The notes beneath the pieces are model-generated. The model made no database searches and was not told where the DNA came from. It saw only the letters and a list, made by a program, of their open reading frames with translations. From Bacillota bacterium (GTDB taxonomy: Bacteria; Bacillota; Limnochordia; Limnochordales; DUMU01), in NCBI GenBank assembly GCA_012839805.1, contig DUMU01000049.1:1-38502 (forward strand): 38,502 bases of DNA, written 5' to 3'. Position numbers and translations under genes: made by a program. Position 1 is the first letter of the stretch. Each line of letters opens with the position of its first letter. Positions 1 through 13,448 of the stretch are shown piece by piece.

Positions 1-33
1 CCTGTCAACTTGCGAGGCAGACTCACCGGTCCC

Positions 34-1392
34 TCAACGATGCGTAAAGAAGTGCCAGGTCCCAATCTGCGGGGGATCACCGGGATCGTCCTTCAACAGG
101 CTCCGGTAGTGAGTAGCCACCTTGCGGAAGGCCGCCGCATACTCTTCTATCAACGCGGGGCGGAAACGCTTGAACCAGGGTACACTGAAGACCCGGCGCC
201 CTATCCCTTCACTGATCGGGAGGCTGCCTGCTGGCTGGCGCACGTCGCGGGTGCTCCGCGCTATCCGCGTCGGTTTACCTTCATTGTATACGTCTGCAGT
301 GTTGAAGACCGGATGGGTGTGCAGAGGAAGATTGCAACCAGGTACACATTGACACCCTTCCGCTCTCACCGCTTCGGCAAACCGGGTGATAGATAGCCCC
401 CCGAGCTCCTCCGGCACGTAATGTCCGTGCGGAGCATACCATCCGGCCATGTTACTCCCCGAATCCTTTGCGACCCGGTGCGCCCGAATCCCCGGGACAC
501 CTTCGAGCAGATCCCAGAAGTAATTCATGGCTTGCCGGATCTCTTCGCACCTCTGGTCATAGTACTTCAACTGTACCCGTCCGACTGCAGCGCTCAATTG
601 GTGCATTCGGTACTTGTAACCACCAAGCGGCAATCCTTGGAACTGGCGCAGGTATTCAGTAGTAATATGGTCGTCGAAACGTTCGTAGTGGCCAAAAGCT
701 ATGGCCCGCTCGTAGATCTCGGTATCATTGGTCACCAGCATTCCGGCTTCTCCGGCGACCAGACTCTTACCGCTCATAAGAGACATGGCGGCGACATCGC
801 CAAATGTACCCAGCTTCCTGCCCTTGTACAATCCACCCTGCGCGTGCGACACATCTTCGATTACCTTCAGCCCGTAGCGCCTGGCGATGGCCAATATGCG
901 GTCCATGTCGGCAGGATGGCCAAGGTAGTGCACCACCATGATCGCCTTCGTTCTATCGGTAATTCGGTGCTCGATGTCATTGGGATCAATGCACAACGTG
1001 ACCGGATCGATGTCCGCGAAAACCACGGTCGCTCCAAGCGAAAAGACTGGTAGTGCGGATGCCCAGTAAGTGATACTCGGACAGATTACCTCGTCCCCCG
1101 TGCCGACGCCACACCCAAACAGAGCTCCGTGAAGAGCTGCCGTACCGTTATTGAATCCCAAAGCATACTTCGTCCCCTGCCAGGCGGCGAATTCTTTCTC
1201 AAATTGCATTGTCACGTCGATACCCGACATGCCCCCACGCCTCAATACCTCCAGTACAGCTTCTTCCTCTTCCTTGGTGATTATCGGCCATGTGAATAGA
1301 TCGCCTGGTGGGGATTGCACGGCTTTAGGACCACCCAAAAGCGCCAACTGCTCTACGGAGCTGCCCTTTTTCGCCGCTACACTGGTAGACAT
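34..1392 (-). CDS. DegT/DnrJ/EryC1/StrS-family PLP aminotransferase (first of two)
   Basis: Fold-type I PLP enzyme of the sugar/cyclitol aminotransferase family, which converts keto-sugars or keto-cyclitols to amino forms, or the reverse. Seen: the N-terminal LALLGGPKAV signature; the phosphate-binding segment NNGTAAL (about residue 82); VIEDVSHAQG with the PLP-nitrogen Asp (about 180); and the Schiff-base Lys in SLMSGKSLVAGEAG (about 209). The length (452 aa) is slightly above the usual 370-440 because of an extended C-terminus. The start is uncertain: GAAGGGGAC is followed by GTG, GTG, AAA, ATG, and the ATG is used here although a GTG at 1398 or 1401 is better spaced. The stop lies 33 bases from the window edge. 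It is the last visible gene of a minus-strand run, 23 bases after the dehydrogenase gene. The substrate is unknown; the resemblance to scyllo-inosose-type aminotransferases is an inference from the N-terminal motif and the neighbours. Confidence 0.9.
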   Translation of the reverse strand: MSTSVAAKKGSSVEQLALLGGPKAVQSPPGDLFTWPIITKEEEEAVLEVLRRGGMSGIDVTMQFEKEFAAWQGTKYALGFNNGTAALHGALFGCGVGTGDEVICPSITYWASALPVFSLGATVVFADIDPVTLCIDPNDIEHRITDRTKAIMVVHYLGHPADMDRILAIARRYGLKVIEDVSHAQGGLYKGRKLGTFGDVAAMSLMSGKSLVAGEAGMLVTNDTEIYERAIAFGHYERFDDHITTEYLRQFQGLPLGGYKYRMHQLSAAVGRVQLKYYDQRCEEIRQAMNYFWDLLEGVPGIRAHRVAKDSGSNMAGWYAPHGHYVPEELGGLSITRFAEAVRAEGCQCVPGCNLPLHTHPVFNTADVYNEGKPTRIARSTRDVRQPAGSLPISEGIGRRVFSVPWFKRFRPALIEEYAAAFRKVATHYRSLLKDDPGDPPQIGTWHFFTHR

Positions 1393-1415
1393 TTTCACCA
1401 CGTCCCCTTCCTAAT

Positions 1416-2486
1416 CTAGTTGGTAAGTGGCAGAACCACCGGATGTCCGCCCGCCTCGGCTGAACGATAAGCAGCTACAACTAACTCCAACGCTTTTCTA
1501 CCCTCCATGCCGTCCACAGCAGGAGGGCGTCCTTGCCTGACCGCCTCTACAAAATCTTCCAGTTGAGCCCGATGGAGCGAAATATCGGTAAGTGTCGGGT
1601 CGGCAACCCCTTCCCGGCTCAGCGCGCGCTTTTCCAGGGACGCGCGGATCTCGTAGTCTTCCTGACGCATCTCCTCCATGGTCCATTCCGTAATCTCGTC
1701 TCCCACCACCACAATGCTCCCCTTGGGTCCGTGCAGCTCCAGCCTGCGGGGCATGCCGGGATACGCGGCCGTGGTCGCTTCGATCGTACCCAAAGCGCCG
1801 TTGCCAAACCGCAGGATCACCACCGCCGTATCTTCCACCTCGATTTGGCGGGCTAGGGTCGCCGTAAAGGCCGAAACCCTTTCGACTTCTCCCATCACCC
1901 AACGCAGCAGGTCAACCGAGTGAATGGCCTGATTGATCAGCGCACCGCCGCCTCCTATCTGCTTCGTCCCCCTCCATTCTCCGGCACCGGCATAATAGTC
2001 TTGTGAGCGATACCATTTGACAGCAGCACTGGCCATCACCGGCCGGCCCAACCGGCCCCGTTGAACTGCGTCCCTCACCAGCCGGTACGTCCGGTTGAAC
2101 CTGGCCTGGAAGATGCACCCGAGCAAGACACCGGCTCGCCGGCAGGCCTCTATCACTCGATCGGCCCGTGCCAATGTAACATCGATGGGCTTCTCCACAA
2201 TCACGTGTTTGCCGGCGGCCGCGACGATCTCCACAATCTCCGCCCGCGTGCCGCTGGGCGTACAAATGTCAACAACATCAATGTCCGCTCGGCCGGCCAA
2301 CGACTGGACATCGGCTTCGAATTCACATTGCCATTCTTGCGCCCGGGCCGGTGCCTCGGGTCCTCCCGTCACCGCTACCAGGCGCGCCCCGGGAAGGCTG
2401 CGAATGGCGGCCGCGTGGACTCGCCCGATAGCACCACAGCCGACTATTCCGAATCCGATTGTTTTCTCGGGTGACATCGGCCCCAT
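1416..2486 (-). CDS. Gfo/Idh/MocA-family NAD(P)-dependent oxidoreductase
   Basis: Cytoplasmic sugar or inositol dehydrogenase-type oxidoreductase. The N-terminal Rossmann domain (residues 9-125) has GIVGCGAIG for the dinucleotide. VDICTPSGT and the family motif VIVEKPID (about 95-102) follow, the latter with the catalytic Lys. The C-terminal alpha/beta dimerisation and substrate domain includes GGGALINQAIHSVDLLRWVMG, with the usual His-Asp pair. At 356 aa it has normal family length. The ATG at 2486 follows GAGAGGTAGGTGAAGCGGT, a reasonable ribosome site; a second ATG at 2477 is possible. Members oxidise or reduce a ring carbon of sugars and cyclitols, and they often supply the keto substrate for a DegT aminotransferase. 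The 23-base spacing to the DegT gene supports such a coupled pair. The exact substrate cannot be read from the sequence. Confidence 0.92.
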   Translation of the reverse strand: MGPMSPEKTIGFGIVGCGAIGRVHAAAIRSLPGARLVAVTGGPEAPARAQEWQCEFEADVQSLAGRADIDVVDICTPSGTRAEIVEIVAAAGKHVIVEKPIDVTLARADRVIEACRRAGVLLGCIFQARFNRTYRLVRDAVQRGRLGRPVMASAAVKWYRSQDYYAGAGEWRGTKQIGGGGALINQAIHSVDLLRWVMGEVERVSAFTATLARQIEVEDTAVVILRFGNGALGTIEATTAAYPGMPRRLELHGPKGSIVVVGDEITEWTMEEMRQEDYEIRASLEKRALSREGVADPTLTDISLHRAQLEDFVEAVRQGRPPAVDGMEGRKALELVVAAYRSAEAGGHPVVLPLTN

Positions 2487-2540
2487 ACCGCTTCACCTAC
2501 CTCTCACAGGACACCCGCAACCGTGGATCTGGGGGTGGAT

Positions 2541-2568
2541 GGGTGGCTGCACGGTCGTGCAGCCACCC
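2541..2568 (-). other. Perfect 12-bp hairpin between binding-protein gene and oxidoreductase gene
   Basis: GGGTGGCTGCAC and its exact reverse complement GTGCAGCCACCC flank a GGTC loop. The hairpin lies 16 bases downstream of the stop of the sugar-binding protein gene, and no U-run follows on the minus strand. Such hairpins after binding-protein genes often protect the upstream mRNA from 3' decay and lower expression of distal genes. That role is inferred here. Confidence 0.6.
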
Positions 2569-2583
2569 GTTCGGCGTTCTCGA

Positions 2584-3933
2584 TCAGTTCTTCTTGGCTG
2601 CTGCTTGCTCGGCAGCATACTTCTGGAAAGCTGCTTCGGCAGTCTCGTGTGCAGTCTGCAGGGCCTCCGCCGCACTTCTCTTCCCGAGCACAACGTCGGT
2701 CAAGATGGCGTTGCGGTCGGGCATACCGGGCACGGGGTTGATGTCCGGCGGACTCGTATATTGGGAAGCACCTACGGCCAGCATTATCCGCCAACTCTTG
2801 GCAACAACAGGAACGGTAGTACCGTACTCAGTCTGAGCAGACTTGAGCGCAGGGAAGCGGCCGGTCTGCTTCATCCACCGGAGAACCGACTCCTTACGCA
2901 TCGTTAGGAACTTCACCCACTGCCAAGCTTCGTTCGGATACTTGGTCTGGGCTGCAATCTGGAAACCCGTAACGCCGACCTTTGTCCTCGGGCCGCCGGG
3001 ACCCTTCACAGGCTGCGTCACATCCCAACGGAAGGGTACAGTGGCCATGTTGGGCCAACCCGGGCCATCCGTAATGTTGATGGCGGTCTTACCCGTCCAG
3101 AAAAAGAACTGCTGTTGCGTGGACCAGGGAAGGGAAAGATGCTGCGTAACCTTGTACTTGTTGAACAAATCCACGCAGAAGTCCAATGCCTGGCGCACCT
3201 CTGAAGAATTGAAGCGGCTCTTAGTCGGGAACTGCAGCCTGTCGTACCACCAGCCACCGGCCTGCAGCACCGCGAGACCGTAGTTCCAATAGTTGGCCAC
3301 ACGGTCTATGCCATACTGCTCAGGTTGACCGTCACCATTCTTGTCGACAGTCAGCTTCTGAGCCGCGCGTACCATATTGTCCCAATCCCATTTCTCCCCC
3401 AACTGGTTGGGATTCATCACCCCTGCCGCATCGAAAAGGTCTTCATTGTACCAGTTGAGCCAAAGGTACAGGTCGAGCGGCACTCCCCAAAGGACATTAC
3501 CCAACGTAAATGCAGAGATAGCTGCTGATGGCCAAAGGTTGAGGTCGAAGTCCTTGTCTTTGCCAATGAACTGGTGTAAATCGAGGAAGTATCCCTGTTG
3601 GGCCAGCCCGACGGCGCTGGCACTTTGGGCGGTCCACTCCGTTACGTCGACCTGAGCGCCACCGGCAACCATGCTGAGAAACTTTGGTACATATTCGCTA
3701 GTATCAGCTGACACCAAGATCTCTATCTTGATGTCTGGATACAACTTCATGAACTCCTTAGCTGCCTCGTCAATGAAGTCTCGCCAACCTTGACCATGGC
3801 CGCTATAACCCCAATGCACAAGAGTTACCCGCGGATTTGCGGCTGAGCAAGAAGGGATTACCGCTCCCAGTACCAGTGCGATGCCGACCACCACTGCCGT
3901 CACCAGAGTCAGCTCCCTCGTCCCGCGCGCCAT
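2584..3933 (-). CDS. ABC transporter extracellular sugar-binding protein (family 1 type)
   Basis: Periplasmic-type (cell-surface) solute-binding protein of a carbohydrate ABC importer. Residues 1-31 form a signal peptide: MARGTRELT, then a hydrophobic run ending VIPSCSAA. Cys29 could be a lipid anchor, although Pro at -2 makes the lipobox imperfect. The mature part begins RVTLVHWGYSGHGQGW, followed by FMKLYPDIKIEI and SEYVPKFLSMVAGGAQVDVTEW, a typical family 1 sugar-binding opening. The C-terminal part has YPNEAWQWVKFLT, the usual hinge-region motif. 449 aa is normal. The start was chosen because AAAGGAGG sits 8 bases before the ATG at 3933; an upstream ATG at 3939 lies too close. No permease or ATPase gene is in the window, so the rest of the importer must be elsewhere, possibly left of position 1. 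Confidence 0.92.
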   Translation of the reverse strand: MARGTRELTLVTAVVVGIALVLGAVIPSCSAANPRVTLVHWGYSGHGQGWRDFIDEAAKEFMKLYPDIKIEILVSADTSEYVPKFLSMVAGGAQVDVTEWTAQSASAVGLAQQGYFLDLHQFIGKDKDFDLNLWPSAAISAFTLGNVLWGVPLDLYLWLNWYNEDLFDAAGVMNPNQLGEKWDWDNMVRAAQKLTVDKNGDGQPEQYGIDRVANYWNYGLAVLQAGGWWYDRLQFPTKSRFNSSEVRQALDFCVDLFNKYKVTQHLSLPWSTQQQFFFWTGKTAINITDGPGWPNMATVPFRWDVTQPVKGPGGPRTKVGVTGFQIAAQTKYPNEAWQWVKFLTMRKESVLRWMKQTGRFPALKSAQTEYGTTVPVVAKSWRIMLAVGASQYTSPPDINPVPGMPDRNAILTDVVLGKRSAAEALQTAHETAEAAFQKYAAEQAAAKKN

Positions 3934-4093
3934 AAACATTGCCTCCTTTCCCTTGTGGAAACAGCGCATGCTTAACACATCGGTCTGACCGCACCCAGAG
4001 GAAAGCAAGACTCACGATCGGTCGATTAACTGCACTCGTCGGTACCGGTTTCGTGCCGCCCCTATGCACCAGTCCCGAAGACTATCACCCCCC

Positions 4094-5605
4094 TCACTGT
4101 CCCGAAATGGGTGAAGCTGCCGACAAACTGGCCCGGTAAGAGCTGAACGCCCCCGCGACCATCTCGGCAACTTTCGCCTCGCGCTGGGGATCGACCCATG
4201 CGATCTCTGCTATACCGAAGGCTCGTTCGTCCGTCAGTTCCCATCCGACAGCATCTTCGAAGTCGGGGTTAACCAAGGTAAAACCTTGTGCCACCAGGCA
4301 GTCAAAGCCCACGATCTGCCAGTAGTTGGATACACCTTTCTTCTCGTAGAGCCGGAAGGTCAGACGAGCTCGGGACTTGCCGGCCAAATATGGCGTCAGA
4401 TTGACAGTTACCAGTTGCCAGTCAGTTGACGCCGTTGCGGCAACGTCGCTTTCCCAGACAACCGTGTCGTCCACGAGCAACTGCTTTACATGGTAGCCGC
4501 CGGTATTTGGGCCGACATCACGGGTGTAGAACATCAGGGTGTAGTTTCCCGGCCAGTTCTCGTTCGGGCAAATCGTTTGCGAAGCCGACAGTACATCTCC
4601 TTGTCTGGTGACCGTATTGGGAGGAATGAAGAAGCTCAGGTAACCCCGACCTGTGATAGCAGGCGACGGCTCCGATATCTGCTCGAGAGGCAGTTGGTAC
4701 ATCACGATACCATCTATCTTGCCCATACGCATGTTGTCGAGAGCCAACGAGACCGCTTTTTCGACGTACTTCACCGACGGTGGAGCCGGCGTCCTCGACA
4801 ACTGCGATGCATAAATCATCCAGTACAATGGTAGTCCGTATTGGTTAAGCAACGCCGATATTCTGTCGATCTGACCTTGCATGGATGAAAGGCGTTGGGT
4901 ATTCCGATAAGGGTCATCGCGATATGCTACAATTACCCCGTCGATGAAAGCGCCACGTGTGCTGAGAAACTGTTGTGTAACCGCAGTGGCATATAACAGA
5001 GGGAGAAATCCCAAACGGGGATTGATATTCCGGGCCGTCTCTGCCATGGTAGCCATATACTCAGGGGTAAAGTACGATAAATTACCATCGAAATCATCAA
5101 TGGCCCAGGCGATCAGATTGGGGTAACGCAGCGAAAGCTCGGCAATGGCTTTGGCCCAAGCAATGTAGTCAGTTGTATAGGGATACGATTTGAGTTCACC
5201 CGTGGATTCTGAGGGAGGTACTAAGTAGACCACGACATTGATCCCCGCCTCCCTGGCTGCGGGCAAGAACTCGTCTTTGAGATCGTCCCAGTCCACAGGC
5301 GATCGCCATACAAGGTAGAAGTACGTGTCGATCCCGAGTTCCTTCAGGCGAGATATCAAGCGCGGGGTATCCAGGTGCAGGTAACCATCGCCTCGCGGCG
5401 CCGGCTCTCTCATCTCACCAGCTCGAAGTGCGTACGCCGCCAATACCTTGGGCGCGCTCCCTGCCCATTCCGTTGCCATACTCATACCCCCTGACTCCTC
5501 GCCCTCTGCCCGCCCAGTCACCGTGGCAATAAACACGAGCGAAGTCAACACCAATACGGCCATCCAACCCACGCCCCGGCTCGCCCATCTCTCCAGCGAA
5601 CTCAT
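4094..5605 (-). CDS. Secreted TIM-barrel (glycoside-hydrolase-like) protein with C-terminal beta domain
   Basis: I do not recognise a named family. Residues 1-33 form a signal peptide (WMAVLVLTSLVFIATVTGRA), so it is probably exported. Residues 50-330 read like a (beta/alpha)8 barrel. Successive strands can be picked out: ELGIDTYFYLVWR, GINVVVYLVPP, LIAWAIDDFDGNL (paired acidic residues typical of glycosidase strand ends), FIDGVIVAYRD, LPLYWMIYAS and IDGIVMYQLP. Residues 340-470 look like a beta-sandwich, with WPGNYTLMFYTRDVG and LVTVNLTPYLAGKSRARLTFRLYEK resembling a carbohydrate-binding module. The ATG at 5605 has AGGAGGGGGG nine bases upstream. It is encoded 160 bases before the sugar-binding protein gene in the same direction, which suggests extracellular processing of the imported substrate. 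Hydrolase activity is inferred, and the catalytic acids are not proven. Confidence 0.72.
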   Translation of the reverse strand: MSSLERWASRGVGWMAVLVLTSLVFIATVTGRAEGEESGGMSMATEWAGSAPKVLAAYALRAGEMREPAPRGDGYLHLDTPRLISRLKELGIDTYFYLVWRSPVDWDDLKDEFLPAAREAGINVVVYLVPPSESTGELKSYPYTTDYIAWAKAIAELSLRYPNLIAWAIDDFDGNLSYFTPEYMATMAETARNINPRLGFLPLLYATAVTQQFLSTRGAFIDGVIVAYRDDPYRNTQRLSSMQGQIDRISALLNQYGLPLYWMIYASQLSRTPAPPSVKYVEKAVSLALDNMRMGKIDGIVMYQLPLEQISEPSPAITGRGYLSFFIPPNTVTRQGDVLSASQTICPNENWPGNYTLMFYTRDVGPNTGGYHVKQLLVDDTVVWESDVAATASTDWQLVTVNLTPYLAGKSRARLTFRLYEKKGVSNYWQIVGFDCLVAQGFTLVNPDFEDAVGWELTDERAFGIAEIAWVDPQREAKVAEMVAGAFSSYRASLSAASPISGQ

Positions 5606-5763
5606 GACAACCCCCCTCCTACCATAAGTACCGCCCCTACCACGGCGGGCGATTCGTTAGTCAGTTGTATTTATATATGCTAGCAACGCATGATTCCTTC
5701 CGGCTCCGCGCCCATTTAATGCCAGTATTTTTTAACACAAATGGCAGATGGTGGCGTGGCCAC

Positions 5764-5805
5764 GGTGGCAACGATCGACGCCGCTCTTTCGCAGCCGTTG
5801 CCACC
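5764..5805. repeat. 10-bp inverted repeat in the 5606-5879 intergenic gap
   Basis: GGTGGCAACG (5764-5773) and CGTTGCCACC (5796-5805) are exact reverse complements 22 bases apart. They lie between the second DegT gene and the secreted protein gene. There is no U-run on either side, so it is not an obvious terminator. It may be an operator or an mRNA hairpin. The right part of this gap, at 5665-5740, is AT-rich compared with the surroundings and may hold the promoter of the secreted-protein gene, but no convincing -35/-10 pair was found. Confidence 0.45.
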
Positions 5806-5879
5806 AAAACAAGCAGGGCGGGTAAGGGCCCGGATACACTTTGGGAACTCTCACCCTCACGCTAGGGTCCTCCCCTTTT

Positions 5880-7142
5880 TTACGCCCCTCGCTCCTTAAC
5901 CGCAGCTGCCCGCCGGGAGGCAAAGTAGGAGGCGACCTTACGAATCGCAGCGACCATTTCGTCCACATCCCGATCGGTAAAGAACTCACTGACCGGCAGC
6001 CGTACCGCCGTTGCCAGCACCTCTTCGGCCACGGGACACAATCCCTCCCCATATGCCGGTACCGCCGCATGAAACCCTGCCGAAATAGGAAAGCCGGCGC
6101 CGTGCAATACCTGAGCTTTGGTCAGGACATCGTAACAGTAAACCGGCCGGGGGATATATCCTTCGCTGCAGGGAATCCCCTCCGCCCGCAGTGCCTCGCA
6201 GAAATGATGCCGGCGCGTTCCGAGTTCTTGCTCATTCACGCGCAGCATGTAGAACCAATAGGTCGCCCGGCTATCGGCAGTAATCCGGTGCGGCTGGATG
6301 CCCGGTAGCCCGCTTATGCCCTGCGTAATCCGATCGCCCAACTCATGGCGCCGCTGGCAGATGCCGGGAAGCTTCTTGACCTGCGCAATCCCGACCGCTC
6401 CCTGCAGTTCCGTCATGCGATAGTTGGGCGCGAGCCACTCGGGATCGCGCCCCGAACCGCTTCGATGATAGTACTTGTCTGCGTAAAGCGCGGCCAAGCG
6501 GGCTAACTCAGAATCGCGAGTGATGACCAAACCGCCATCGCCGGTCGAGATGTGTTTGAAGTCATTCAGGCTGAAGCAGCCGAAATCGCCAAACGTACCG
6601 ACTTTGCGCCCTTTATACTCCGCCAAGTAGCTTTGGGCGCAGTCTTCGATTACCCGAATTCCTTTGCCTTTGGCAATTTCCATAATCGCGTCCATGTCAC
6701 AGGGATTACCAGCCAGATGAACGGCAATTATTATCTTGGTTCTGGAGGTAATCTTCGCTACGACCGAGCTAGGGTCAAGATTGTACGTGTTGGGGTCGAC
6801 GTCTGCAAAAACTGGCACTGCTCCTTGATACAAGATGCCAATTATCGTGCCCCAATCCGTGATTGGTGACGTTATCACCTCATCGCCCACGCCTACACCC
6901 AAAGAGGCAAGAGCTACATGAATCGCAGCAGTACCCGAGCTGACCGCGACGCAATACGGCACTTCATGCAACGCCGCAAATTCGGCGCATAGTTGCTTTA
7001 CCTTCCTACCCGACCAATAGAATAGCGTATTCTGATCCAGTGCTTCTCTGAGCTGAGCCAGCTCTTCTTCACCAAAACGCTTTCCTTCTCCAAAAGGCGT
7101 CGACTTGGCCTTTGGGCCGCCATACAAAGCCAACTCCGTCAT
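5880..7142 (-). CDS. DegT/DnrJ/EryC1/StrS-family PLP aminotransferase (second of two)
   Basis: A 420-residue sugar/cyclitol aminotransferase paralogous to the one at the left end. Both share the LALxGGPKA start and the segment YKGRKxGTFGD. Seen: SSGTAAIH phosphate-binding loop (about residue 69); VIEDCAQSY with the PLP-pyridine Asp167; and FSLNDFKHISTGDGG with the Schiff-base Lys196. The start at 7142 was preferred because GGGAGAG lies 8 bases upstream and the LALYGG signature begins there; an in-frame extension to 7283 is probably not translated. It follows the 589-residue deacetylase-like gene by 147 bases. Two different DegT enzymes in one cluster suggest either two amino groups on the substrate or one anabolic and one catabolic step; neither can be decided from the sequence. 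Confidence 0.92.
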   Translation of the reverse strand: MTELALYGGPKAKSTPFGEGKRFGEEELAQLREALDQNTLFYWSGRKVKQLCAEFAALHEVPYCVAVSSGTAAIHVALASLGVGVGDEVITSPITDWGTIIGILYQGAVPVFADVDPNTYNLDPSSVVAKITSRTKIIIAVHLAGNPCDMDAIMEIAKGKGIRVIEDCAQSYLAEYKGRKVGTFGDFGCFSLNDFKHISTGDGGLVITRDSELARLAALYADKYYHRSGSGRDPEWLAPNYRMTELQGAVGIAQVKKLPGICQRRHELGDRITQGISGLPGIQPHRITADSRATYWFYMLRVNEQELGTRRHHFCEALRAEGIPCSEGYIPRPVYCYDVLTKAQVLHGAGFPISAGFHAAVPAYGEGLCPVAEEVLATAVRLPVSEFFTDRDVDEMVAAIRKVASYFASRRAAAVKERGA

Positions 7143-7289
7143 GCCAAGCTCTCCCTTCCCGTCTTCTCGTCCGGCTTCAGTCCCTTCGGACAGTACGCTC
7201 TTACGGTCCGAGCAGGCCTGGATAGCTCGCCCCTCCCTTGTCAGGCCAAACAAGACTATCCTACTTGGTCTCACGCGGCACAAAGCACA

Positions 7290-9059
7290 CTAAACGAGGA
7301 CAAACGGCAAGTCTGGAGCGACTTCTCCACTACGTACCACCGCCGGAAAGCCGTAAACAGACACGCGTTCTGCAACCGACCCGCTCTTACGCTGGAGAGT
7401 TTCTGCCTCACCCCAAGGAAGAGTAGGATCAAAAAGCACAAAAGTAGCTTCTGGCACGTGCCAAGAAGTCTTTGCCACCCACCCCACGGCCGAATCATGC
7501 CGGGTAAACTGGAGTTGAGTCTGCCTGCGGGTTCTCTCCCAGGACTGAATGGCGCTACTGGTCCACCATTCTATCCCTTGTTCCCGTCCGTACGTGACTA
7601 CGTCGGCCATAGCCTGAGGTATTCCTGGTTTCTCAACGTGCGCGGGATGGAAGAGGAAATGGGCCACCCCGTAGTGTTTAATCGCCTGATCGACACAGGC
7701 CCTGCCGATTTCGGCCGGGCAGGTGAGGACCAGATCCTGAGTCATGAGGTTGATCTCAAGTACGTCGATGCGCTCAGCGGTGTGCTCATCCATGGGAAAC
7801 CAGGGATGCGCCCCACCGAAGGGAAAACCTGTGTTGCCTTTCTTTGAGGGACCCTTAGTCTGATCGCATCGAATACCCGCCCGTTCTAGCCAATGGAAGA
7901 ACTCAGTTAATCCTTCCCAGCGAAGGTAGTGGTTCTTGTTTGACACTATCGGTTGCTGTTCATCTATCATGTCGCGCAACCAGCAAAGTTGCAAGCGCAA
8001 ATGGTGTTCATCCCAGAATCGCTGTCCAAGTTGCGTCCGGGCATCGTAATGCAGGGCTATTTCATATCCGTCACGATCCAGCTGGCGGTAGAAGCCCGGA
8101 CTGTAGCCACCCGGGTAGACCACGCACCAAGTGGAAGGAATTCCTAGCTTCTTGAGGTTCTCCAACAGCAGATCGGCTTTGTCCGGTTCGTTCAGGTCGG
8201 TATCATGAGATAGCAGTCCTACCGCAGCCAGCGGTCTCGGCCAATACCATAGCATCGGCAGATACGAGTTAGTAGCCCTCGCAGCCCATAGCAGGAACCG
8301 GATCAGCAGCTCACGCCACTCGTCCGCCACCGGACACCCGAAGAAATATGTATCGGCGATAGGCTGACGATCCCGTTCGTAATCGAGCACAATCCCATCG
8401 TCGGTCTTTAGAATACCGTCATCCACCGGTGCACTGCCATCAGCCGGGGGGATACCATCTACGTACACCGGCCGCCCCTGCTGAATGCGGACCACGGCAG
8501 CTGCCACATCTGCGCCGATCAGCACCGCCCATCCCCGTCCAACCCGTCGCAGCGTAACTGCCGGCCCCACCTCGGCCTTTTGCCACCCTTCCGCCTGACA
8601 CCACCGATCACCATCCAACCAGCTGGCCAACACCTCTACCGAGAAGTCGACGGGTTCTAACCAACGCCCGCCGAAAGCGTGCAGCGGGCCCGACATCCCG
8701 GCGAGCATCGGTAAGACGGAGGTATCCCACGATCCAACCCAGGCCTCCCGGAGAGGTCCGCGATCACGGCAGCCAAACACAGCTTCCAGTCCCGAAGGGC
8801 CTCCCAAGCCTATCAATACTTTTCCGCCGGCAACGAAGCGGCTCAACGCCTCTTTGACATCATCTGGAAGATGGAGGTTTGCGGGTATCACGATGGCAAA
8901 GCAGAGGTCAACCTGAGTCGCAAGTCTCTCCGGTTCCGGCCCGATTCGCCGGTAGGGCAGCCCGGCATGTTGAAGGATCTCCTCAACGTATCCTGCGTAT
9001 CGCCCCCAAGGATCTACCGCTCTGGCCTGATTCGCGAGCCACAAGAGACCGATCTCCAT
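7290..9059 (-). CDS. Polysaccharide-deacetylase-like protein with N-terminal amidotransferase/trimerisation-like domain
   Basis: A 589-residue cytoplasmic protein (no signal peptide). Residues 1-260 resemble the class I amidotransferase-like (ThuA/beta-galactosidase trimerisation-like) fold: MEIGLLWLAN, VDLCFAIVIPANLHLPDDV, FVAGGKVLIGLGGPSGLEAV and GRGWAVLIGADVAAAVV. Residues 278-470 look like a NodB/CE4-type deacetylase barrel: AAVGLLSHDTDLNEPDKADLL with the metal-type His-Asp motif (about 284-288), LKKLGIPSTWCVVY, YEIALHYDA (His337) and HYGVAHFLFHPAHVEKP (a late His pair). The C-terminus is a short beta-rich region. The start at 9059 was chosen because AAAGGAGATCAGG is placed ideally; upstream in-frame codons lack a ribosome site. 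It is the first gene of the minus-strand island and is divergent from the hydrolase gene at 9386. A role in removing an acyl group from a sugar is an inference; it could instead be a non-catalytic relative. Confidence 0.72.
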   Translation of the reverse strand: MEIGLLWLANQARAVDPWGRYAGYVEEILQHAGLPYRRIGPEPERLATQVDLCFAIVIPANLHLPDDVKEALSRFVAGGKVLIGLGGPSGLEAVFGCRDRGPLREAWVGSWDTSVLPMLAGMSGPLHAFGGRWLEPVDFSVEVLASWLDGDRWCQAEGWQKAEVGPAVTLRRVGRGWAVLIGADVAAAVVRIQQGRPVYVDGIPPADGSAPVDDGILKTDDGIVLDYERDRQPIADTYFFGCPVADEWRELLIRFLLWAARATNSYLPMLWYWPRPLAAVGLLSHDTDLNEPDKADLLLENLKKLGIPSTWCVVYPGGYSPGFYRQLDRDGYEIALHYDARTQLGQRFWDEHHLRLQLCWLRDMIDEQQPIVSNKNHYLRWEGLTEFFHWLERAGIRCDQTKGPSKKGNTGFPFGGAHPWFPMDEHTAERIDVLEINLMTQDLVLTCPAEIGRACVDQAIKHYGVAHFLFHPAHVEKPGIPQAMADVVTYGREQGIEWWTSSAIQSWERTRRQTQLQFTRHDSAVGWVAKTSWHVPEATFVLFDPTLPWGEAETLQRKSGSVAERVSVYGFPAVVRSGEVAPDLPFVLV

Positions 9060-9385
9060 CCTGATCTCCTTTCCAGTCAACCCGCCGCGGAGGTCTACCG
9101 GTCTGGCCATTCCGCCGGCGGAACGCACATTGATCAATCATTTGTATTTAATTATACGTCACCCATCGCCTTCCTTGCCGTGCTATTCGGGTTCACGAAG
9201 GCGTATTTTTCCATGCGGCAGGACGACGAGAGGATTTTCCTGGCGTCTGGAAGGTCGCACCGCCCACGGCCTACCTTCATTCCGGGAAGCCGTGCAGATC
9301 GAACAGCCCTGCAGGAGTCAGCACGGTAACGCAGAACACCCACGCGCGGGAAACGACCGCACACGAACCGAGGGGGACGTCTGTT
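9060..9385. other. Divergent intergenic region of the carbohydrate island
   Basis: This 326-base gap separates two divergently transcribed genes. It contains an AT-rich patch (9128-9166) that stands out from the GC-rich surroundings, with the perfect palindrome ATTGATCAAT at 9129-9138. On the minus strand, GTATAAT near 9160 resembles a -10 box, but its -35 is poor. No tRNA, small ORF or terminator was found. It probably holds both promoters and an operator. Confidence 0.45.
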
Positions 9386-11464
9386 ATGACTGCGTCCCGG
9401 GGTACCCCGGCGCTCGCCTGGTGGCAAAAACCCATGCGTATAGCCGCACTGCAGTGCGAAACTTCGACCGATCCCTTCCGCATCCTGGATGGCTGGGATA
9501 AGCTGGGTTTCAACGTCGAGCAGCTCTTACACATCAGTGCACACGGGTGGTTGGGCGTCTACGATCCGGCTAAGGCCGATCTCGTCCGCGACTACATCGC
9601 CGCCGCCCACCGCCGGGGTATGCGCATCATCTTCTACTTCGGCGGACATTGGCTGAGCGATGATCTGCAGAAGCAGCACCCTGACTGGCGGGCCAGGCGG
9701 CGTGACGGCACCTACATCGATCACGCCTGCCTGGGCAACGAGGGGTACGTGGCCTGGGTACAGGATATCAGCCGGGAGGTCGTGGCCCTGGGGGCCGACG
9801 GCGTTTTCCTGGACGGTGCCTACATCGCCCCCGACGGCTGCTTTTGCGACCGCTGCGCGAGTGAGTTCCGGGAGTCCTTCGGCGTCGAGCTGGCCCAAGC
9901 AGAGGGCGATCCCGACCTCCGGCACAAGGTCACCGAGCTGAAGATGCGCGTGGTGGACCGCTATTTGGCGGCAGTCCGGAAGGCCGTCCACGCCGCTAAT
10001 CCTCAGGCCGTATTGTACGTGAACATGCCCGGACTGCACCCGCTGCGCACTCGCGGGGTCGACATCCGCCGGCATCTGGCCTTCCAGGACCTCGCAGGTG
10101 CGGAAGGCGGGTTCATGTACTATTCTCCGGCGTCCCAGATACCCGTGTGGAAAGTAGGTGCCGTCGCCAAGCTGCTTGCCACAGTTGCCAACGGCAAGCC
10201 AACAGTGAGTTTCTGTGCTGCGGACCACAAGCCGTGGAATCTCTCCATGATCTCCGCCGCTGAAGCCACCATCACCTACTGCCAGGCTATCGCCCACGGT
10301 TCCAGCGTGTGGTTTGGATTGCACACCCCCCGCTTCGAAGAAGCCATCGCCTCCCCGACACTCCAGGCGGTAGGCCGCATGAACCAGTTCATTGCCCGGC
10401 ATGAGGAGTACTATACGGCCACCCGTTCCAGCGCACGCGTGGCCGTGCTCTTCTCGTACGACACCGCAGAGGAGTACCGCTACAGCGCCTCCGACTCCGA
10501 CTTCCTCGCCACCCAGAAGGACGGGAACCAGGGCGTGACCGGCGATTTCTCCAAGAGCTGGATGGGTTGCTATGAAGCGCTCACGCGGTCGCACATCCCG
10601 TTCGACATGATCGACGACACCGCGGCGAGCGACCCGGCATTCCTGCAGGCCCGGTACGACCTGGTGATCCTGCCCACGGTGGCCTGCATGTCAGATGCCG
10701 TAGCCCGGGCGCTTGAGCAGTTCGTAACCGCCGGTGGGAATCTGCTGGCCGCTCATGAATGCGGGGCATATGACGAACGGGGGCGCCGCCGGGCTGAGCC
10801 GGCACTTAGCAAGGTACTGGGCGTTTCCTGGACAGGCAAGACTGTGGCCATGAAGCGGTTCAGCTACCTGTCTCCCACAGAGGCGGGTAAGGAAATACTA
10901 TGGACCGCTGTGAACGAAGAGCTGCAGCCAGCCCCGCCGTGGGCTCTAGAGGTAGAGCTTGCAGGCGCCAAGGCTCTGGCCAGGTTTCACGAGCCGGTCG
11001 ATCGGCAGTACCGCCCGTTGACGCCGACCACCTCCCCGGCTATAACCCTGCACCACTACGGCCAGGGGCAGGCTGCCTACATTGCGGGTACGTGGTTCGA
11101 GACTTACATGATAGAGGGTTTCCCATCCTACCGGGCGCTTACGCAGCAGTTGGTGCGCCGCCTAAGCCGTCCGGTAGTTGAGGTGGAGGGCTTGCCTGGC
11201 TCGGTCGAAGTGGTAGTGCGGGTCCAACCCCACACTCAGCGTATGATCATCCACCTGATCAACATGACCGGCGATATGACCCGGCCGATGGAGAAGATAA
11301 TGCCCATTCCGGGACCCGCCTTCCTCACCGTCTACACCGATGCTCCCATGCGATCGGCTAGGGCGCTGATGAGTAGCCGGCCGTTGCCGCTCGATGCCGC
11401 GGACGGCAAGGTTCGCATCGAAGTTCCGGGTCTGAACGACTACGAGGTGATCGTGCTCGACTGA
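9386..11464 (+). CDS. Putative glycosyl hydrolase (GHL6/GH42-like barrel plus trimerisation-type domain)
   Basis: A 692-residue protein without a signal peptide. Residues 20-330 read as a glycosidase-like TIM barrel: DKLGFNVEQLLHISAHGW, AAHRRGMRIIFYFGG, then LGADGVFLDGAYIAPDGCFCDRCASEF. In the last segment a barrel-end Asp is followed by a compact CxCxxC motif (Cys152, 154, 157), typical of the hypothetical glycosyl hydrolase 6 group and of Cys-rich zinc sites in GH42 relatives. Residues 345-480 resemble the beta-galactosidase trimerisation/amidotransferase fold (ARVAVLFSYD, ARYDLVILPTVACMSDAVA, FVTAGGNLLAAHECG). The C-terminal 200 residues are beta-rich. The ATG follows GAGGGGG by 9 bases. 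It is divergent from the minus-strand island and probably acts intracellularly on the imported saccharide. The family assignment is by motif; the substrate is unknown. Confidence 0.8.
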   Translation: MTASRGTPALAWWQKPMRIAALQCETSTDPFRILDGWDKLGFNVEQLLHISAHGWLGVYDPAKADLVRDYIAAAHRRGMRIIFYFGGHWLSDDLQKQHPDWRARRRDGTYIDHACLGNEGYVAWVQDISREVVALGADGVFLDGAYIAPDGCFCDRCASEFRESFGVELAQAEGDPDLRHKVTELKMRVVDRYLAAVRKAVHAANPQAVLYVNMPGLHPLRTRGVDIRRHLAFQDLAGAEGGFMYYSPASQIPVWKVGAVAKLLATVANGKPTVSFCAADHKPWNLSMISAAEATITYCQAIAHGSSVWFGLHTPRFEEAIASPTLQAVGRMNQFIARHEEYYTATRSSARVAVLFSYDTAEEYRYSASDSDFLATQKDGNQGVTGDFSKSWMGCYEALTRSHIPFDMIDDTAASDPAFLQARYDLVILPTVACMSDAVARALEQFVTAGGNLLAAHECGAYDERGRRRAEPALSKVLGVSWTGKTVAMKRFSYLSPTEAGKEILWTAVNEELQPAPPWALEVELAGAKALARFHEPVDRQYRPLTPTTSPAITLHHYGQGQAAYIAGTWFETYMIEGFPSYRALTQQLVRRLSRPVVEVEGLPGSVEVVVRVQPHTQRMIIHLINMTGDMTRPMEKIMPIPGPAFLTVYTDAPMRSARALMSSRPLPLDAADGKVRIEVPGLNDYEVIVLD

Positions 11465-11784: not shown

Positions 11785-12264
11785 TTGGGCCTTGCTGCTA
11801 ATGAGGGCCCGTGCTATCCGGTGATCAAAGCCTATCCTGACGCATGGTATTGCTCACAAGTTTGTGGCAGCCGGTGCTGCAGGGTGGCTGACGTCTGGAC
11901 GCTTCCGGGCGAAGAGCTGAGCTATGACTTTTGGCGGGCCAATTATCCAAGACCCGGCAAAGACACCTGTGGCTGCCTTGATGAGAGGGGACTTTGCAGA
12001 ATCCACGATGGCCGGCGACCCCTGATCTGCAGCCTTTTCCCCTACTTCAAATTCGAAGACGCGGTCCTGGCCAGTCTAAGCTGCAAGTATGTCCGGGAAG
12101 TGGTCTTGCCCGCCATCAGCTCTCACACGGTTCGGGATCGCCTTTTCCAGGGCATCCTGGAGTGCATCGACTGCCAGTGCTCCGCTGAAGAGACGCGGGA
12201 GATCGAACAAAGGCTGAGGGAGTGCAAGGGAGCGTTCCTGCTGATACGGGGGAATCGCGGCTGA
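11785..12264 (+). CDS. YkgJ-type cysteine-cluster protein
   Basis: A 159-residue protein with the spaced cysteines of the YkgJ/zinc- or iron-chelating CxxxCxxCC family. Near the N-terminus there is CSQVCGSRCCRV (about residues 24-35). In the middle there is CGCLDERGLCRIHDGRRPLICSLFPY, matching the family pattern of Cys, Cys-x-Ile-His/Tyr, and Arg-Pro-x-x-Cys-x-x-Phe-Pro. Later cysteines (CIDCQC) may form a further metal site. Members probably bind an iron-sulfur cluster or metal; the function is not established. The start is uncertain: the frame opens after TAA at 11773, the first start-like codon is TTG at 11785 without a ribosome site, and GTG at 11821 is an alternative. It is isolated from neighbours on both sides and probably monocistronic. 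Confidence 0.72.
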   Translation: MGLAANEGPCYPVIKAYPDAWYCSQVCGSRCCRVADVWTLPGEELSYDFWRANYPRPGKDTCGCLDERGLCRIHDGRRPLICSLFPYFKFEDAVLASLSCKYVREVVLPAISSHTVRDRLFQGILECIDCQCSAEETREIEQRLRECKGAFLLIRGNRG

Positions 12265-12505: not shown

Positions 12506-12581
<76 letters not shown>

Positions 12582-12613
12582 ACGCAAACCGTAAACTTGC
12601 AACCAAATCTTGT

Positions 12614-12690
12614 TGGTAGCGGAGGAGGGATTCGAACCCCCGACACTGCGGGTATGAACCGCATGCTCTAACCAACTGAGCTACTCCGCC
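12614..12690 (-). tRNA. tRNA-Met, elongator (anticodon CAT)
   Basis: Minus-strand cloverleaf with acceptor GGCGGAG opposite CTCCGCT (G1-U72), A73 and an encoded CCA. The anticodon loop is TTCATAC on a TGCGG/CCGCA stem. The stem lacks the three consecutive G-C pairs of initiator tRNA, and the sequence resembles the Bacillus elongator tRNA-Met. This makes initiator and lysidine-type tRNA-Ile2 less likely. Confidence 0.94.
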
Positions 12691-12706
12691 AACGCAGGCA
12701 ACACTT

Positions 12707-12735
12707 ATTCTACCTACCGGCCGGGCCGGCGTCAA
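12707..12735 (-). promoter_or_regulatory. Sigma-A promoter of tRNA-Met/tRNA-Lys
   Basis: Minus strand: TTGACG (12735-12730), a 17-base spacer and TAGAAT (12712-12707). The -10 box ends 16 bases before the mature 5' end of tRNA-Met. Confidence 0.8.
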
Positions 12736-12781
12736 CCCCACCCGCGCCTTCGCCTCCTCCAGGCCAATACCAGCCCCGGCT

Positions 12782-13297
12782 TCAGCCCCTGACACCCGCT
12801 TGAGTCCCTGACCCCGCTTGCGTTCCCGCCCCGGCTTCCGTCCTGCCGGTCACTGTCCGGCCCGAGCCGCCTTCCCGCTCGTCGCTGGCCGCCACCGGAG
12901 CCGCCTCCGGCATCATGACCCACGGCCTGGCCTCTCGCCCCGTTCCCGCCATCCCTCTCCCGGCTCGCAAGGCCTCCCGGAGCTTGGCCCGTTCTCGCTT
13001 GAGGTTACCTCGCGCACAACTCAGCTCGGCGTGTTGAACCGCAAGCAGCTTCGAAAGCAAAACCAGCCCCGCCCAAAGACCAATGAAGCCCGTGGCAGCT
13101 CTACTCAAATGCCAGTCGTAGCGGTCATGGTACAGATACACCCCAACACCTATCAACGCCATTTCGGCCAGCCACCACAGGAATCCCAGCCAGACCCGGC
13201 CCGCGTAAACCTGCCCCGCCCCGGTCACAAAGAAGGAGAAAACGGCTGCCAGTCCAGGATCTCTCGAGCGATCGTCCACGCCCACCAGCCCCCTCAT
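12782..13297 (-). CDS. Small membrane protein with two TM segments and low-complexity tail
   Basis: A roughly 171-residue protein with no named family recognised. Residues 14-45 (LAAVFSFFVTGAGQVYAG, then WLGFLWWLAEMALIGVGVYLY) resemble the TM2-domain type in which a GxGQxYxG motif precedes a membrane span. A second span, TGFIGLWAGLVLLSKLLAV, follows, then a basic and polar region. The C-terminus is low complexity, with a repeated AGxGTQAG motif near the end, so that part is poorly constrained. The start is uncertain: ATG at 13297 has only a weak ribosome site, while GTG at 13279 has AGGGGG nine bases upstream. It is placed between the tRNA-Leu terminator and the tRNA-Met promoter in the same direction. 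Confidence 0.6.
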   Translation of the reverse strand: MRGLVGVDDRSRDPGLAAVFSFFVTGAGQVYAGRVWLGFLWWLAEMALIGVGVYLYHDRYDWHLSRAATGFIGLWAGLVLLSKLLAVQHAELSCARGNLKRERAKLREALRAGRGMAGTGREARPWVMMPEAAPVAASDEREGGSGRTVTGRTEAGAGTQAGSGTQAGVRG

Positions 13298-13312
13298 CCC
13301 CGAATCTGACCG

Positions 13313-13343
13313 GCCAAACAAAAGCCCCGCCGGTCGGCGGGGC
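13313..13343 (-). terminator. Rho-independent terminator of tRNA-Leu
   Basis: On the minus strand GCCCCGCC, loop GACC, GGCGGGGC, then TTTTGTTT. The stem starts 17 bases after the encoded CCA of tRNA-Leu. Confidence 0.88.
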
Positions 13344-13360
13344 AACAAGCTCAAACCCAA

Positions 13361-13448
13361 TGGTGCCGGAGGCGGGAGTCGAACCCGCAAGGTGCCATGC
13401 ACCGGTGGATTTTAAGTCCACAGCGTTTACCAGTTTCGCCACTCCGGC
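13361..13448 (-). tRNA. tRNA-Leu (anticodon TAA)
   Basis: Long-variable-arm (class II) cloverleaf on the minus strand. Acceptor GCCGGAG pairs with CTCCGGC, followed by A73 and an encoded CCA. The anticodon loop is CTTAAAA on a GTGGA/TCCAC stem. The variable arm GGTGCATGGCACC can form its own hairpin, and the T loop is TTCGACT. TAA decodes TTA and TTG. Confidence 0.96.

Follow-up and report, generated by a model that had tools for sequence, protein, structure and literature searches.

DegT aminotransferases recur beside a divergent NodB-like protein: a candidate amino-sugar module in an accessory carbohydrate island of a Limnochordia bacterium

A stretch of 38,502 nucleotides from a Bacillota bacterium of the class Limnochordia (assembly GCA_012839805.1, contig DUMU01000049.1) opens with an island of carbohydrate-related genes at positions 34-11464. 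The whole stretch, hereafter the window, corresponds to contig C42 in a 2.78-Mb draft genome, and positions refer to it. The core of the island, two pyridoxal phosphate (PLP) aminotransferases of the DegT family (DegT1 and DegT2) and a protein with a divergent NodB-like domain (DEAC), recurs in distantly related bacteria. This conserved DegT-DEAC module is the firmest result of the analysis, and it is narrower than the seven-gene system proposed in an original prediction made from the letters of the window. DEAC and DegT2, together with DegT1, may work as a module in the catabolism of N-acylated amino sugars or aminocyclitols imported by an ATP-binding cassette (ABC) system, a reading to which we give a probability of about 0.5; we infer its reactions, their direction and the substrate from gene content, linkage and conserved residues. 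Each of the seven predicted genes is an open frame at the position given for it, and the region is laid out as follows.

1-127, no strand: exact overlap with contig C40, encoding the last codons of DegT1; the minus-strand series continues on C40
34-1401, minus: DegT1, PLP aminotransferase (PF01041, E 1.5e-82); start probably ATG at about 1392
1416-2486, minus: Gfo/Idh/MocA dehydrogenase (PF01408/PF22725), 15 bp from DegT1, with EKP and NQAIH motifs
2584 to about 3933, minus: ABC sugar-binding protein, SBP_bac_1 (PF01547, E 3.9e-27), with a signal-like N-terminus and an inferred start
4094-5605, minus: secreted protein, probable TIM barrel plus beta-sandwich, glycosidase-like; no Pfam or NCBIfam family, model pLDDT 59
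5606-5879, no strand: intergenic gap of 274 bp between the TIM-barrel gene and DegT2, with a perfect 10-nt inverted repeat (5764-5773/5796-5805)
5880-7283, minus: DegT2, PLP aminotransferase (PF01041, E 6.5e-89); start probably ATG at about 7142
7290-9137, minus: DEAC, GATase/GH42M-like domain plus divergent NodB-like deacetylase domain (AlphaFold2 model, Foldseek); start probably ATG at about 9059
9386-11464, plus: GHL6 and GH42M protein, putative glycosidase, divergently transcribed (PF08532, E 2.1e-16; PF14871, E 1.8e-9)

The collection holds 73 genomes of the window's class and 103 of Paenibacillaceae. A scan of the collection yielded seven DEAC relatives, and dozens more occur in Paenibacillaceae, several per genome. 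Two genomes, G459 and G465, carry five or more DEAC paralogs each, which points to substrate diversification. Linkage was assessed in a sample that included 40 Paenibacillaceae neighbourhoods, mostly the best-scoring places, and four contigs of G459. A DegT gene lies within 2 kb of DEAC in 27 of the 54 DEAC copies of this sample. For Paenibacillaceae only, the count is 23 of 47 copies, which form 27 DegT-DEAC pairs, all of them on the same strand. From the DegT counts per genome, the chance of such proximity in this family is about 0.8% per DEAC copy, giving P 3e-36, a value that overstates independence because the linked genomes share ancestry. Orthologs of DegT2 at 57-64% identity are present in 28 of the 103 Paenibacillaceae genomes; DEAC accompanies them in 27 of these 28 genomes, as against 4 of the 75 that have no DegT2 ortholog. 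The distance to DEAC is at most 2 kb for 18 of the 37 DegT2 copies and at most 10 kb for 23. At four loci (L125, L131, L133 and L137), two DegT genes stand beside one DEAC. In a tree restricted to the DegTs of the examined loci, both window proteins fall inside DEAC-linked clades (support 100/99). DegT-linked copies are dispersed across the DEAC tree (at least nine forced changes), hence the association arose or was kept repeatedly. No description of such a DegT-deacetylase cluster was found in the openly licensed literature.

The original prediction saw one dedicated system in these genes and proposed a search for co-occurrence of all seven families. The idea of a dedicated system survives for the DegTs and DEAC, which recur together far above chance, but not for a single seven-gene unit: the full set does not recur in the genomes compared, and only the DegT-DEAC core does. 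The binding protein and the dehydrogenase, both correctly recognised in that prediction according to their Pfam matches, are generic and lie outside the conserved core; the dehydrogenase has a paralog at 42% identity in its own genome. Nor is the secreted TIM-barrel protein part of that core, its single clear homolog among the 73 genomes of the class (42%) being in a DEAC-free genome. It matched nothing above cut-off in Pfam and NCBIfam and nothing in a sequence search of the Protein Data Bank (PDB). The TIM-barrel assignment itself holds in part: the model is of low confidence (pLDDT 59), yet its best PDB matches are TIM-barrel glycosidases. Since the model is weak, the fold-search ranking was not used to name a family. 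The prediction of a GHL6-like hydrolase was borne out by Glyco_hydro_42M and GHL6 matches. In the class, its best homologs reach 32-33% and belong to G033 and G030, which are also the only two other genomes there with DEAC, but they lie on other contigs.

DEAC itself reaches the cut-off of no family in Pfam or NCBIfam. Its AlphaFold2 model (pLDDT 78, pTM 0.85) contains a predicted NodB-like barrel, and the best Foldseek matches are PelA (9cgy, E 2.5e-10) and human NDST1 (9f6z, 6.5e-10), followed by GH42 proteins, which align through the N-terminal domain, and by polysaccharide deacetylases (3rxz, TMt about 0.6). Weak matches to Polysacc_deac_1 (PF01522) at E up to 1 appear in 32 of 51 relatives (best 9.6e-5), below the family cut-off; together with the predicted fold, they uphold the deacetylase-like label that this gene had been given. 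Residues D312, D314, H363, H403, H493 and H497 are invariant in 51 aligned homologs. As regards the Asp-His-His metal triad, the Asp and the first His (H363) are invariant and the His four residues further on is missing. H403, H493 or H497 could possibly serve as the replacement ligand. Because the second metal His is lacking, the protein is described here as NodB-like, and its membership of a deacetylase family is not taken as proven. The same missing ligand speaks for a different reading, in which DEAC is another hydrolase or a binding protein built on the NodB fold and DegT is linked to it via a different nitrogen-bearing carbohydrate. PDB sequence searches with profiles of 3 and 51 DEAC sequences, which gave nothing meaningful (best deacetylase E 0.13 with the 51-sequence profile), point the same way. 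Nevertheless, the invariant Asp and His residues are at the expected motif strands, and both the weak family matches and the several deacetylases among the fold matches tell against this reading, which we regard as very improbable.

By a crude test, 53 of the 54 DEACs have no hydrophobic leader, the window protein included, so that most should act in the cytoplasm. The exception is the L020 protein; the L023 protein probably carries a leader too, masked by an early start codon.

The two DegT proteins score 278 and 299 bits against PF01041 (cut-off 19.8) and differ strongly from each other, with about 35% identity, so the original view of two distinct DegT genes was right. The PLP lysine (K212 in DegT1, K243 in DegT2) is invariant across 36 DegTs, which indicates aminotransferases and not His-type dehydratases. 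They are putative aminotransferases acting on a keto sugar or cyclitol. DegT1 has orthologs at 68-73% in L115, G033 and G030. The G033 ortholog of DegT2 (L015:10974-12214) is broken across two frames near 11430, owing to an assembly error or to decay of the gene. The dehydrogenase is closest among solved structures to 3q2k (E 2.9e-56) and 3q2i, which we take to be WlbA-type enzymes, rather than to inosamine enzymes, so that the likeness to scyllo-inosamine-type catabolism drawn in the original prediction stands as no more than a lead. Among NCBIfam equivalogs none passes for it, the best being IolG with 167 of the 355 bits needed.

These structural relatives of the dehydrogenase raise the question of biosynthesis. 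The set could build or remodel an amino-sugar glycan or an aminoglycoside-like metabolite: the WlbA-like dehydrogenase would make a keto sugar, the DegTs would aminate it, and DEAC would trim N-acetyl groups. Named DegT structures are biosynthetic. In the Wbp pathway, a 3-dehydrogenase and a 3-aminotransferase make a diacetamido uronic acid (PMC10622841). Against this, no cut-off of a biosynthetic NCBIfam equivalog is reached. The 92 neighbour proteins of linked loci are dominated by ABC permeases (17), SBP matches (14) and GntR regulators (9), and no glycosyltransferase, NDP-sugar or flippase family is among their 25 commonest families. Such importer-rich surroundings without common glycan-synthesis families favour degradation, and biosynthesis seems improbable to us. 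The original prediction had leaned towards catabolism. That preference is strengthened for the DegT-DEAC module, since its usual position among ABC importers and regulators agrees better with the import and breakdown of an amino sugar or aminocyclitol than with its synthesis. Genes for heparinase II/III-like lyases, ceramidase-like, amidohydrolase, creatininase-like and esterase-like proteins recur near DEAC, and a GH20 gene also stands beside it. Near many DEAC loci (L131:5479-6891, L120:13198-14643 and similar), GntR DNA-binding domains are apparently fused to sugar-binding-protein domains, which suggests intracellular sugar-sensing regulators.

To the left, window positions 1-127 are identical to positions 1-127 of C40 reversed, the pattern of an assembly-graph overlap. 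Next on C40, in the same direction, come genes for a ROK repressor (PF00480) and a glutamate dehydrogenase (PF00208), then the N-terminus of a truncated GH4 (PF02056) and genome-repeated sequence. The GH4 gene (L004:2719-3960) ends early at 180 aa, the sequence after it is 94% identical to places on C51 and C5, and it is probably a decayed gene beside a repeat. The original prediction had proposed to look left of position 1 for ABC permeases, a kinase and a regulator. The join places a regulator, the ROK repressor, there, whereas no ABC permease or kinase gene is present on C40 or among the island genes; the rest of the genome was not searched for permeases. At L021, a glutamate dehydrogenase gene lies within 10 kb of a DegT-DEAC pair, perhaps by chance.

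The main rival to a single catabolic module divides the region into two unrelated neighbouring sets with different substrates: DEAC-DegT2 on the one hand, and on the other a sugar operon of the TIM-barrel, binding-protein, Gfo/Idh, DegT1, ROK and glutamate dehydrogenase genes. The 274-bp gap separates 5880-9137 from 34-5605 and, with its inverted repeat, is a possible boundary of two transcription units. DegT1 and DegT2-DEAC are on different contigs in G033. In G030, the region L157:8617-19901 holds the DegT1 ortholog together with genes of the Gfo/Idh, ROK, M14 peptidase-like and SBP types, and DEAC is absent from it; the generic nature of the binding protein and the dehydrogenase also suits a division. 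On the other side, 31 bp separate a close homolog of DegT1 from a DEAC gene in L115, where a GH20 gene is nearby, DegT1 and DEAC are both present in G000, G030 and G033, and Paenibacillaceae repeatedly show paired DegTs beside DEAC. On balance, we hold the division to be unlikely.

If the catabolic module exists as proposed, the binding protein would deliver a small glycan or amino sugar, and cytoplasmic DEAC would strip its N-acyl group. The DegTs would then transfer the exposed amino group to a keto acid (2-oxoglutarate, for example), and the Gfo/Idh enzyme could reduce or otherwise process the resulting keto sugar. Glutamate dehydrogenase would restore 2-oxoglutarate, and the ROK repressor would control the gene set; two DegTs would suit two amines or two related substrates. 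Linkage, co-occurrence, the PLP lysines, the candidate catalytic residues of DEAC and its fold matches to N-deacetylases, the leaderless DEACs, the importer-rich neighbourhoods and the glutamate dehydrogenase gene on C40 support this catabolic scheme. Several points weigh against it. In half of its copies DEAC stands without an adjacent DegT, and shared ancestry tempers the statistics. DEAC may catalyse a different reaction, since the second His of the usual His-His-Asp metal site is missing and DxD stands where DD is expected. Membership of the ROK, glutamate dehydrogenase and GH4 genes relies on the assembly overlap, and the island itself is without permeases. Moreover, DegT enzymes are reversible, and most of the characterised ones are biosynthetic.

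The island is accessory: a genome of the same genus, G001, keeps the right flank (11750 onward) with its tRNA genes, on two contigs, and lacks the genes of 34-11464. The right edge is marked by a cysteine-rich protein of 159 aa (11785-12264) that has no Pfam match and is kept in the same-genus genome. Close to this edge are tRNA genes for Lys, Met and Leu (12506-13448). Positions 14000-38502, read from the translations, are ordinary backbone with methionine synthesis, mfd, pth, prs, glmU, ispE, rex, dcd and other genes.

If confirmed, the catabolic reading would supply a function for a large protein family without a name, which reaches five or more copies in some Paenibacillaceae genomes, and would explain how some soil and compost bacteria regain carbon and nitrogen from unusual amino sugars. 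DegTs, known chiefly for making antibiotics and surface glycans, would then be seen working degradatively as well. Because DegT and DEAC are so tightly linked, the search for the substrate is open to direct testing.

Among known systems, the sugar N-deacetylases PelA and NDST1 (Agd3-like) share with the DEAC model an accessory domain at the N-terminus and, behind it, a NodB-like deacetylase barrel. In NDST1, D319 is the base, D320, H389 and H393 bind the metal, and H529 is the acid (PMC10864358). DEAC differs from these enzymes in being shorter and mostly leaderless, in having SHDxD for DD and in retaining only the first metal His (H363); the overall rmsd of 9.5-12.7 A limits the resemblance to the level of the fold. 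The window DegTs resemble the DegT/DnrJ/EryC1/StrS family (ArnB, perosamine synthase, 2-deoxy-scyllo-inosose aminotransferase) in the whole-family match and the PLP lysine, and depart from its named members in belonging to DEAC-linked clades and passing no equivalog. A Gfo/Idh/MocA dehydrogenase gene adjoining a DegT gene is also typical of the WlbA/WbpB-WbpE and NtdC-NtdA pairs, which serve biosynthesis; unlike them, the pair is accompanied here by a binding-protein gene and, on C40, by genes for a ROK repressor and glutamate dehydrogenase. We tentatively suggest, as a doubtful but broader proposal, that the module represents a widespread and undescribed route of amino-sugar nitrogen removal independent of NagA/NagB, in which a cytoplasmic PelA/NDST-like N-deacetylase with a rebuilt metal site would work with dedicated DegTs in Bacillota, Chloroflexota and their relatives. 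The logic proposed for the catabolic module, deacetylation and then loss of the amine, would be analogous to the NagA/NagB route for N-acetylglucosamine, from which it would differ by employing other protein families at both steps.

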